IMG/VR virus record: IMGVR_UViG_3300021093_000107
Coordinates: 1-52,409 of that record
Length of the DNA: 52,409 nt
DNA from: a virus
Direction: 5' to 3' (one strand)
Under the pieces are notes generated by a model. It was not told the origin of the DNA, made no database searches, and worked only from the letters and a program-made list of their open reading frames with translations. Shown one piece after another: positions 35,409-46,820 of this stretch. Each line of letters starts with the position of its first letter. Within the stretch, counting starts at the first letter, position 1. The position numbers were made by a program, and so were the translations under genes.

Positions 35409-35441
35409 TTTTTACCCCCCTTTGTTATTGAGTGTTTAATA

Positions 35442-35469
35442 AGGATACATGTTTTTTATTATATGTCAA
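35442..35469 (-). promoter_or_regulatory. Sigma70-type promoter for the ArdC block
   Basis: Minus strand: TTGACA (35469-35464), 16-nt spacer, TATCCT (35447-35442), preceded by TAGTAAATAAAAG. The predicted start is about 27 nt upstream of the ArdC ATG (35408). The upstream 14 nt closely match those of the promoters at 33210 and 20807. Confidence 0.75.
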
Positions 35470-35499
35470 CTTTTATTTACTAATTAATTTTACGGGGGT

Positions 35500-36370
35500 T
35501 TTATAGCGCGCTTGGTGATCTTTTTGTTATTGCGTTTTTAATGGGTGTTACTTGCGGGCGGGGTTATACTTGAGCATTTTACTAGGTTATTAGGTTTTTA
35601 AAGTGGTAACATTTTTAAGTCTTTGTTTTACTTGGTTTTTTAGATAACGTGGTTTTTACTTGGTTATTGCTAGGCGTGCTAAGTTCTTGATTTTATTGAT
35701 GTTTCCAATGTTGCCACTAATCCGCTTTACTAATAAAACAGAAAAAGGCTGAAAATTGAGAGATTGAGTTTTTATAAGTCTCTGTTTTATATATATTATT
35801 ATAATTATAATTATTATTATTATTGATTAATTTTTAATCATGTTGCCGTGTTACCACTATTTCGAATAGATAGATCGATTTTATTTTTAGGGGATTTACG
35901 TTGCGCAAAAAGGTGTCTTTGTTACCAAGTCGCCCGAGTTTTTACCCCGCGCCCCCCTCTTTTTTCGTGGTAACATGGTAACATTTTAAAAAGCCTAGTA
36001 AAAACGAAGCGTTACATAGTAAAACTTAAAGTAACTTAGTGGCAACATTGGTAACACGCTTGATTTTACTAGGTTTTATTTGGTTACCTAGTAACACCTA
36101 GTAAAACCCCCGCAAATAACCTAGTAAAACCTAGCGCCCCACCCATACCCTACCCCCCAAACCTAGCAGACGGAGTCCCAACTTGGTATTACACTGAATC
36201 GCGCGTGAATACCCCATAAAAATTACAAAGTTTTACCCCACCCCGCTAGTTAAACTCTCACCTTCCTTGTAATACGCAATATCGGAACCCACCCCTATCA
36301 AAAATAAAGGGCTTTGCAAAAAAATTTCTACAAAAAAATCTGAAATATCAAGGACTTAAGGTAAACAGGG
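35500..36370. other. Candidate replication origin / control region (non-coding)
   Basis: No credible gene occupies 35409-36590. The region lies where leftward early genes and rightward late genes diverge. It holds an AT-only tract (about 35787-35820), at least five direct or near copies of CCTAGTAAAAC (35994, 36015, 36087, 36097, 36120) plus inverted copies ATTTTACTAGG (35576, 36063), several GTGGTAACAT-like words and short C-rich runs. Iterons next to an AT-rich tract at a transcription divergence are typical of phage origins. The functional call is inference. Confidence 0.5.
35705..36051. repeat. Inverted repeat, 16-nt perfect arms (CCAATGTTGCCACTAA / TTAGTGGCAACATTGG)
   Basis: The left arm at 35705-35720 and the right arm at 36036-36051 are exact reverse complements separated by 315 nt. 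Related half-words (GTGGTAACAT, ATGTTGCCGTGTTACCAC) occur between them. The arms enclose the AT-rich tract, which fits initiator or repressor binding with looping. Confidence 0.75.
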
Positions 36371-36417
36371 TGTAAAGCATAGTTTACATCGCGGAAAAAT
36401 GTGTAATATACTACACA
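36371..36417 (+). promoter_or_regulatory. Promoter embedded in two operator-like dyads
   Basis: Two related 18-nt dyads, TGTAAA-N6-TTTACA (36371-36388) and TGTGTA-N6-TACACA (36400-36417), have centres 29 bp apart, close to three helical turns. The right arm of the first provides a -35 box (TTTACA, 36383-36388), and a -10 box TATACT (36407-36412) falls in the second, with 18-nt spacing. A dimeric regulator bound here would block RNA polymerase; the HTH protein at 17576 is a candidate. Confidence 0.6.
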
Positions 36418-36420
36418 AAA

Positions 36421-36444
36421 AAAGACTAATTTGTAAGATTAAGT
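36421..36444 (+). repeat. 24-nt direct repeat, copy 1
   Basis: The sequence AAAGACTAATTTGTAAGATT plus AAGT recurs with one mismatch at 36917-36940. The two copies flank the terminator and the small secreted-protein gene. Confidence 0.85.
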
Positions 36445-36485
36445 ATATGATTTCATTGGACATATGCCAATCAGTATACACCGTT

Positions 36486-36508
36486 CTACCTATTTAGGTA
36501 GATTTTTT
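36486..36508 (+). terminator. Intrinsic terminator
   Basis: Perfect 7-bp hairpin CTACCTA-TT-TAGGTAG (36486-36501) followed by A and six T. It lies between the dyad promoter and the gene at 36591. Confidence 0.75.
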
Positions 36509-36590
36509 CTTGCCTAAGATCGCACATAATGCACTCCATGAACAAAAGCATTGAAACGAACTAAAAATTAAAATTAACTAGGAGATCATT

Positions 36591-36863
36591 ATGAAAACCA
36601 AAAATCTAATCACAGTATTATCAGCCGGAATATTATTAGCAGCAGTTAACGTTTATGCAGATGAAAATAAAGATACTAAATACAATATCAATCATCAAAA
36701 TCTTTCAAAGCGACCATATAGTCAAGCACCTACTGAATCTAAGAAAGATAATTTTGAGGGTGCAACATTAATCAACGAGCAAGTGGCGGAAGATACAAAG
36801 CATAAGCCCATGCGTCTTCATATGCTTGGTAGACAACCTTATAACGTGAAAAATTCGGACTAA
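36591..36863 (+). CDS. Small secreted protein, unknown function (accessory cargo)
   Basis: 90 residues with a clean Sec signal peptide (KTKNLITVLSAGILLAAVNV, cleavage likely after VYA, residue 23). The mature part is polar and low-complexity, with two similar motifs, NLSKRPYSQA and MLGRQPYNVK. A good RBS (TAGGAGATC) precedes the ATG. It stands alone between a terminator and a minus-strand gene and is flanked by 24-nt direct repeats, so it looks like an acquired 'moron'. A role in the periplasm, such as envelope modification or exclusion, is only a guess. Confidence 0.75.
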   Translation: MKTKNLITVLSAGILLAAVNVYADENKDTKYNINHQNLSKRPYSQAPTESKKDNFEGATLINEQVAEDTKHKPMRLHMLGRQPYNVKNSD

Positions 36864-36916
36864 CCACAACTTTATACTTTACAAGGCCAGAATTAAATGC
36901 AAAAAAGTAAAAAATG

Positions 36917-45172: not shown

Positions 45173-46084
45173 ATGGCTATTTCACGCGCACAGCTCCTTA
45201 AAGAGCTACTCCCAGGACTTAACGCTTTGTTTGGTCTAGAGTATAAACGTTACGGCGAAGAACACAAAGAAATCTACGAAACAGAGACTTCAGAACGTTC
45301 TTTCGAAGAAGAAACAAAACTATCAGGCTTTTCAGCAGCACCTGTTAAAAACGAAGGCTCAGCCATCGCTTATGACAATGCGCAAGAAGCTTTTACTGCT
45401 CGATATAATCATCAAACTATTGCTCTTGGTTTCTCCCTCACAGAAGAAGCTGTAGAAGATAACTTGTATGACACATTATCAGCACGTTACACAAAAGCTT
45501 TAGCTCGCGCTATGGCTTACACAAAACAAGTTAAGGCTGCCGCAGTTCTTAATAATGGCTTTACTGCCGGCGTAAATGCTGGTGGTGATGGTGTAGCATT
45601 ATTTAGTACAGCTCACCCACTTGTTAGTGGTGGCACAAACAGCAACACTCAATCAACTCCAACTGACTTAAATGAAACTGCACTTGAAAATGCGGTTATT
45701 CAAATTGCAGCTTGGACAGATGAGCGTGGGCTATTAATTGCTGCTCAACCTCGTAAATTAGTTGTTGCTCCAAGTAATCAATTCGTTGCAACTCGTTTGC
45801 TCGAAACTGAATTACGTGTATCAACAGCTGACAACGATATCAACGCAATTAAGAACAATGGATCAATCCCAGAGGGTTATACAATTAACCATTACTTGAC
45901 AGATTCTGATGCATATTTCTTAACAACTGATGTACCTAACGGCATGAAACACTTTGTCCGTACACCGTTATCAACCTCTATGGATGGTGACTTTGATACA
46001 GGCAACGTTCGTTACAAAGCCCGTGAACGTTATTCATTTGGATTCTCAGATCCACTTGGTATGTTTGGTTCACCAGGCGCTTAA
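45173..46084 (+). CDS. Major capsid protein (HK97-fold)
   Basis: 303 residues. Start ISRAQLLKELLPGLNALFGL and YGEEHKEIYETETSERSFEE, then an Ala-rich spine helix (YTKALARAMAYTKQVKAAAV), VAPSNQFVATRLLETELRVS and a C-terminal RERYSFGFSDPLGMFGSPGA. This is a familiar coat-protein pattern in podoviruses with similar gene order. A strong terminator follows 26 nt after the stop, as expected for the most abundant message. Confidence 0.92.
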   Translation: MAISRAQLLKELLPGLNALFGLEYKRYGEEHKEIYETETSERSFEEETKLSGFSAAPVKNEGSAIAYDNAQEAFTARYNHQTIALGFSLTEEAVEDNLYDTLSARYTKALARAMAYTKQVKAAAVLNNGFTAGVNAGGDGVALFSTAHPLVSGGTNSNTQSTPTDLNETALENAVIQIAAWTDERGLLIAAQPRKLVVAPSNQFVATRLLETELRVSTADNDINAIKNNGSIPEGYTINHYLTDSDAYFLTTDVPNGMKHFVRTPLSTSMDGDFDTGNVRYKARERYSFGFSDPLGMFGSPGA

Positions 46085-46110
46085 TTAGCATTTTGCTACG
46101 TACTACTAAG

Positions 46111-46139
46111 GGGCTTGTTTAAAACGCAAGCCCTTTTTT
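46111..46139 (+). terminator. Strong intrinsic terminator after the capsid gene
   Basis: GGGCTTG-TTTAAAACG-CAAGCCC, a 7-bp stem, followed by six T (46134-46139). It would end most capsid transcripts; genes further on rely on readthrough or on their own promoters. Confidence 0.92.
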
Positions 46140-46230
46140 CATGGTTTTCTTGATGTTTGTTTTCATGCAATTTGAAATAATGCAGTTGTAGAGTAGAAAC
46201 TCTATATAACTTTTTGAAAAGGAAAATACT

Positions 46231-46302
46231 ATGTGGACTAAACCAGCTGCAACAGAAATGAGATTTGGCTTTGAAATAACGATGTACGTAATGAATAAGT
46301 AA
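46231..46302 (+). CDS. pqqA: PqqA, pyrroloquinoline quinone (PQQ) precursor peptide
   Basis: 23 residues, the same length as Klebsiella PqqA. The peptide starts [11 protein letters not shown] and continues [11 protein letters not shown], with the invariant Glu15 and Tyr19 spaced as E-x-x-x-Y, plus conserved W2, K4, P5, R11 and G13. In cells the radical SAM enzyme PqqE (with PqqD) crosslinks these Glu and Tyr side chains, and proteolysis and PqqB/PqqC convert them to PQQ. PqqA is consumed one-for-one. No other pqq gene is in the window, so host enzymes must process it. AAAAGGA lies 7 nt upstream, a 6-bp hairpin at 46189-46204, and terminators flank the unit on both sides. No strong promoter is visible, so expression may come from capsid-gene readthrough. 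Confidence 0.93.
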
Positions 46303-46342: not shown

Positions 46343-46366
46343 AGGGGGTTTACAGCCTCCTTTTTT
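46343..46366 (+). terminator. Intrinsic terminator after pqqA
   Basis: AGGGGG-TTTACAG-CCTCCT hairpin (one G-U pair) followed by a T tract. Its loop contains the TTTACA used as -35 box by the next promoter. Confidence 0.75.
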
Positions 46367-46376: not shown

Positions 46377-46397
46377 GCTTTGAACTTAGGAGGTGTT

Positions 46398-46820
46398 ATG
46401 CCACTCAAAGACAAAGCAGCACGCAAAACCTACCATAAAAAATACCATGCAAAGTGGTACGAAGAAAATAAAGAAAAACGCCTTAAACAAATATCAGACT
46501 ATGATAAAACGCAGCCTAAAGAGTGGCGAAAAGCCATAAGTAGAAAATGTAATTTAAAACTCAGATATAATTTAACTCCCCAAGAATACGAAACTAAATT
46601 AGCTAGCCAAGATTATAAATGTGCATTATGTGGTAAAGACGCAAACGACAATATAAGACGAGGCAAAGTAGAACCCTTATGTGTAGATCATTGCCACACT
46701 ACTAAAAAATTAAGAGATTTATTATGTTTTCACTGTAATTCTTTTCTAGGACACGCCAAAGATAATCCAAAAGTTTTATCAAAAGCCGCACAATATCTCA
46801 TAGATTACCAACAAAAATAA
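46398..46820 (+). CDS. Recombination endonuclease VII-like (HNH/ββα-Me) nuclease
   Basis: 140 residues from ATG 46398 with AGGAGG 4 nt before it. Zinc-ligand pairs CALCGKD and LLCFHCNSFLGHA flank the catalytic EPLCVDHCHTTKKLRDLL; this is the endonuclease VII pattern. A basic N-terminus may bind DNA. Free-standing EndoVII/HNH genes beside capsid genes often behave as homing endonucleases. It has its own promoter, so it looks like an insert between head genes together with pqqA. A junction-resolving role as in T4 gp49 is also possible. Confidence 0.88.
   Translation: MPLKDKAARKTYHKKYHAKWYEENKEKRLKQISDYDKTQPKEWRKAISRKCNLKLRYNLTPQEYETKLASQDYKCALCGKDANDNIRRGKVEPLCVDHCHTTKKLRDLLCFHCNSFLGHAKDNPKVLSKAAQYLIDYQQK

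Follow-up and report, generated by a model that had tools for sequence, protein, structure and literature searches.

A 23-codon gene for the PQQ precursor peptide PqqA in many unrelated Methylophilaceae-linked phages

The window analysed here comprises the whole of a viral IMG/VR record of 52,409 bases, and harbours, directly downstream of the gene for the major capsid protein, a frame of 23 codons plus stop that translates into a full-length PqqA, the precursor peptide of PQQ (Table 1). This frame scores 42.1 bits against the Pfam family PqqA (PF08042; cut-off 21.1, E-value 8e-11) and 40.2 bits against the NCBIfam equivalog TIGR02107 (cut-off 20), which is about twice the cut-off in both instances, and is the sole PqqA match within the record. 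Similarly, a degenerate PqqA DNA pattern occurs once in the window and in none of 100 shuffles. The first-pass annotation, which had read the frame as PqqA, is therefore borne out by the curated cut-offs of both families. With regard to the residues that it considered invariant, W2, P5, R11, G13, E15 and Y19 stand, but K4 does not, as the most frequent of the host forms detected carries T4 at this position (MWTTP...). The two core residues of the E-x-T-x-Y motif that become PQQ, E15 and Y19, are both present.

The gene has its own Shine–Dalgarno motif and is enclosed by two terminator hairpins, an arrangement that had likewise been annotated, as had the position next to the capsid gene. The stretch that separates the first hairpin from pqqA yielded no sigma-70-like promoter and, given that this hairpin lies upstream, expression of the gene in the window is not assured; its transcription may result from read-through from the capsid gene or from another kind of promoter.

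Table 1. Positions in the window of pqqA, its flanking signals and neighbour, and the stretch of host-like DNA
Feature	Coordinates	Strand	Evidence
Apparently captured Methylophilaceae host DNA: regulatory region and 90-aa gene (36591-36863)	36448..36874	+	91-92 % DNA identity
Major capsid protein, immediate upstream neighbour of pqqA	45173..46084	+	Annotation; junction conserved in contigs L002, L072 and L075
Terminator hairpin, interval between capsid gene and pqqA	46108..46136	+	-15.3 kcal/mol, z -4.25, then T run
Shine-Dalgarno AAGGA	46219..46223	+	Sequence; 7 nt 5′ of ATG
pqqA, 23-aa PQQ precursor peptide (stop included)	46231..46302	+	Profile matches
Terminator hairpin 3′ of pqqA	46343..46361	+	-13.2 kcal/mol, z -3.8, plus T run

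The window is, by annotation, the genome of a tailed phage, with genes for terminase, portal, major capsid protein, tail fibre, DNA polymerase and helicase; it further encodes a primase-helicase, an exonuclease, a cytosine methyltransferase and an ArdC-like antirestriction protein. The capsid and terminase are nearest to those of the Pelagibacter phages HTVC023P and HTVC027P and of phage DSL-LC04, with terminase identities of 48–52 %. Amongst the best 80 contigs by capsid, three from different metagenomes (L002, L072 and L075) possess pqqA 134–186 nt 3′ of the capsid stop, and L002 aligns to the window in a single block of 84 % identity that reaches from the capsid gene to the end of pqqA, stop codon included. 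As the same junction recurs in three independent contigs, the misassembly with host DNA at 46.1–46.4 kb that the first-pass annotation had named as a possible refutation does not apply, and the sequence is not chimeric. The structural genes, the conserved junction and the isolates described below all place pqqA on a genuine phage genome. Within the 35 longer contigs with related capsids, pqqA is present anywhere in just these three, so that only part of the group possesses the gene; most of the 35 probably infect other hosts.

Behind the window pqqA lies an endonuclease VII-like gene (46380-46820), for which an ATG at 46398, preceded by AGGAGG, seems preferable as start codon to the TTG at 46380. 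This gene is missing at the corresponding site in L002 and L072, where the DNA 3′ of pqqA matches the window only behind it, indicating either an insertion in the lineage of the window or a loss in the others; it is likely a mobile or homing-type insertion.

Beyond the window, PqqA open frames were found in at least 358 IMG/VR stretches (358 of the 360 distinct stretches fetched), a count that is a lower bound, having been obtained with one degenerate PqqA pattern followed by three disjoint patterns. The viral copies listed encode 170 distinct peptides, and 343 of the 358 are preceded by a Shine–Dalgarno motif; in a set of 128 copies the motif accompanies 124, compared with 9 % of shuffles. 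Arg11, which the patterns did not require, is found in every one of the 358. A tblastn search of the GenBank phage collection (50,697 records) matched 12 records, nine of which are phages of Methylophilales or Methylophilaceae, namely Venkman, P19250A, MEP301, MEP401, MEP402, Melnitz and Melnitz-1 to -3. Additional methylophages named in the NCBI taxonomy (MEP431-434, Venkman EXVC038S, phiMB624-A and others) lie outside this count of nine. The remaining matches are one uncultured podovirus (Manatee Spring) and two 'Acinetobacter phage' contigs, and neither a second query nor the Methylobacterium form of PqqA added further records from the collection. One of the contigs, 'Acinetobacter phage MD-2021a' (CAKLQF020000010.1; L328:3001-6054), was set aside as bacterial DNA, in which pqqA is followed by pqqB, C, D and E.

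The expectation that a gene of 72 nt is easily overlooked proved accurate, as the feature underlying the match in the ten phage records inspected is either 'none' or a hypothetical protein, and never pqqA. In Melnitz and the podovirus the overlying feature is an antisense frame; gene 152 of Melnitz (L326:2961-3056), which is called antisense to pqqA, is probably the reason why the true gene went unnoticed.

The phages that harbour pqqA are largely unrelated to each other. According to their records Melnitz belongs to the Kyanoviridae and MEP402 to the Zobellviridae, and pairwise comparison of the isolates, the podovirus and the window reveals only 0–7 proteins in common, other than for Venkman and the podovirus, which share about 20. 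Clear protein similarity to these phages was seen for 101 of 124 scored loci, spread across all of them. The surroundings of the gene are similarly varied: it is antisense to its neighbours in Venkman and MEP301, lies between converging genes in P19250A, is co-directional with the next gene in MEP402, and follows the capsid gene in the window. A terminator-like hairpin is located 3′ of pqqA in 50 of 126 viral copies, as opposed to 0.6 % of shuffles, and in 105 of 123 host copies. The gene thus behaves as a self-contained cassette, and is shared by numerous Methylophilaceae-linked phages that are not related to each other.

With regard to selection, the viral copies display a dN/dS of 0.095 over all codons, 0.15 at those on which the first scan placed no constraint, and 0.097 in nine sequences that did not come from a pattern search, values that are rough because synonymous change is near saturation. 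Third codon positions are the most variable, as is typical of a coding gene. The viral pqqA is a genuine PqqA under purifying selection, kept by selection in phages. A comparison with the PqqA of Methylophilaceae, which had been proposed at the outset, demonstrates that the phage peptides match those of the host family exactly or closely: both are of 23–24 residues with the same conserved residues, and the viral peptides seen most often also occur in hosts. At the DNA level they differ, with no pqqA sequence common to the viral and host sets. Hosts also possess several copies together with PqqB-E, whereas phages have one copy and no such enzymes.

A second link to this family arises from the window itself. 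When its 36–52.4 kb part was compared with 120 Methylophilaceae genomes, the matches were pqqA and a stretch of 427 nt, the latter displaying 91 % identity to one genome and 90–92 % to another, both of which are 1.2–1.3 Mb in size. It contains a 90-aa gene with a signal-peptide-like start, along with upstream regulatory DNA. In the host, as read from sequence, this gene and a regulator whose C-terminus is of LuxR type point away from each other, and only the first codons of the regulator are retained in the window. No relatives of the 90-aa gene were found in viral contigs or phages, and it is therefore no general methylophage gene. The stretch looks like a recent capture that links the phage, without recourse to pqqA, to Methylophilaceae with small genomes. 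In one Methylophilaceae genome (L384:2256-3141) two relatives of the 90-aa gene lie directly upstream of a co-directional pqqA, the three standing behind a divergent LuxR-type regulator; this was seen in one case only. Members of both families are present in the window phage, 10 kb apart.

The suggestion that a phage would carry the substrate alone, without pqqB-E, fits the records examined. PqqE was above cut-off in 0 of 47 pqqA-bearing IMG/VR records, with weak matches in three (the positive control, an Acinetobacter record, gave 632 bits), and PQQ alcohol dehydrogenase, the family of methanol dehydrogenase, was likewise absent from all 47, having been found in 7/7 host genomes as a control. 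As many IMG/VR records are fragmentary, this absence is firm for the complete isolates only, of which Melnitz and Venkman have neither PqqE nor the dehydrogenase and P19250A has no dehydrogenase. The annotated frames of the window have no match to either family. AmoC (PF04896), a marker for phages of methanotrophs, gave no match in the pqqA-bearing records and none in the controls either.

The hosts, for their part, appear to be generously provided with the precursor gene. According to a previous report, Methylophilaceae have pqqBCDE and 3–12 copies of pqqA, with the other pqq genes present as a single set as a rule (PMC4109929), and in Gluconobacter a production strain that depends on PQQ benefited from an extra pqqA, alone or as part of the operon (PMC8102297). 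In our sample pqqA was detected in all 120 Methylophilaceae genomes (mean 4.6 copies, median 4, range 1–12), and in 32 of 120 genomes of an order-level sample, mostly in 1–3 copies; the hosts also have several PQQ alcohol dehydrogenase paralogues each. The pqqA copy number suggests that what is scaled is the supply of precursor. The phage gene has a homologue in host metabolism, as befits an auxiliary metabolic gene.

In PQQ synthesis, PqqD binds PqqA, PqqE joins its glutamate and tyrosine, and PqqB and PqqC complete PQQ, with the peptide being consumed. Since one PqqA is consumed per PQQ, the supply of precursor can limit the amount of cofactor. From the sequences, the viral gene is probably a functional, stand-alone pqqA used as an auxiliary metabolic gene; every step beyond the identity of the peptide as PqqA is one that we infer. 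Host PqqD would bind the phage peptide, host PqqE would cross-link Glu15 and Tyr19, and host PqqB and PqqC would mature the product. Extra PqqA during infection would then keep the XoxF/MxaF methanol dehydrogenase, the host's main energy and carbon route, loaded with cofactor as host expression fails. Raised PQQ and sustained methanol oxidation in infected cells are plausible outcomes. The gain from one more pqqA is not obvious, as hosts already have several copies. The wider proposal is that pqqA is a near-universal, unannotated gene of Methylophilaceae phages, spread over six or more unrelated lineages, and that the reason lies in the precursor, which is consumed and which, rather than the enzymes, sets the rate of PQQ formation and hence of methanol oxidation during infection; we favour this by a slight balance of probability.

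Several other explanations merit consideration. Contamination does occur in such collections, with one 'Acinetobacter phage' record bearing pqqA being plainly bacterial, but that host DNA, chimeric assembly or misclassified bacterial contigs account for the viral copies is scarcely credible when the capsid–pqqA junction is the same in three contigs, PqqE is seen in none of the 47 viral records and 101 of the 124 loci have proteins in common with isolates; moreover, isolated and sequenced phages possess the gene, which for them already refutes this explanation. Alternatively, pqqA could be a passenger, in that small and numerous host cassettes are often picked up and retained without benefit, as might be expected where hosts have up to 12 dispersed copies and where the window has recently captured another host gene. 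Strong purifying selection over saturated synonymous change, and the presence of pqqA in every methylophage record detected, nevertheless render this highly improbable.

Two further alternatives concern what the peptide is for. As a decoy or regulator it would occupy PqqD or PqqE, or give a cross-linked product that acts on the host, instead of feeding PQQ synthesis; a phage may profit when a host function is lowered as well as when it is raised. A decoy should differ at the reacting residues, however, and many viral peptides are identical to those of hosts, with Glu15 and Tyr19 kept. Whilst both residues were required by the scans, they are also kept in isolates found without that requirement, and a decoy is accordingly very unlikely. 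It is also conceivable, if unlikely, that the PQQ supplied serves not methanol oxidation but, for instance, a different PQQ dehydrogenase or an antioxidant role, as the several alcohol dehydrogenase paralogues of the hosts might allow. Against this, the credible matches in the phage collection are confined to methylophages and one uncultured podovirus, and three PqqA queries returned no match in phages of bacteria in which PQQ use is peripheral.

The first-pass annotation did not recall pqqA as an established phage gene, and this holds only in part. A T4-like methylophage scaffold from Lake Baikal, VP_266, encodes pqqA (Coutinho et al. 2020, PMC7678222), and a virus-encoded pqqA also features in the gene list of PMC13188868. 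VP_266 resembles the window in being a Methylophilaceae-assigned phage with PqqA, and a role in methanol oxidation was already proposed for it. It differs in being T4-like and in encoding a methanol dehydrogenase, none of which was found in the pqqA records tested here, whereas the window belongs to the HTVC023P-like group and has pqqA 3′ of its capsid gene. PMC7678222 handles the VP_266 gene as a single case, and the wide scale was not found in the openly readable literature. The papers describing the isolates (PMC9004378, PMC10580990, PMC8024684 and PMC8163748) make no mention of pqqA, including PMC10580990, which lists other metabolic genes. What is apparently new, as far as the openly readable literature reveals, is therefore the spread across IMG/VR and the unannotated presence in cultured methylophages from more than one lineage, several in all.

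Some phage genes, cyanophage psbA among them, sustain the energy metabolism of the host. Both psbA-type genes and pqqA would keep a central energy route of the host supplied with an exhaustible part, the former as an enzyme subunit that turns over and the latter as a 23-residue precursor that is consumed into a cofactor. Should pqqA indeed be near-universal, this 23-codon gene would be amongst the commonest metabolic genes of Methylophilaceae phages, phages would target methanol oxidation in much the way that cyanophages target photosynthesis, and limitation of PQQ by its precursor would become testable in existing pairs, such as H5P1 with Venkman or Melnitz. If true, the proposal would also make pqqA a marker for methylophages in metagenomes and name a control point of the host. 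That cultured methylophages, some with published surveys of metabolic genes, are annotated without it points to a blind spot, whereby such short genes escape detection or are displaced by antisense calls.

Further observations concern individual sequences. A distinct subgroup of viral PqqA peptides (L083, L087, L089, L093, L097, L098, L102, L109, L113, L150 and L186) is unlike the Methylophilaceae peptides seen, and possibly derives from phages of other PQQ-using bacteria. In the window, searches for tRNAs and against Rfam gave no matches, and the frame at 49116-49781 matches PHROG 3704 'ferredoxin', with no match in Pfam. Finally, 1 kb of the window (35410-36440) has no long open frames and contains many repeated CCTAGTAAAAC- and GGTAACA-like words, and may be a replication or packaging region.
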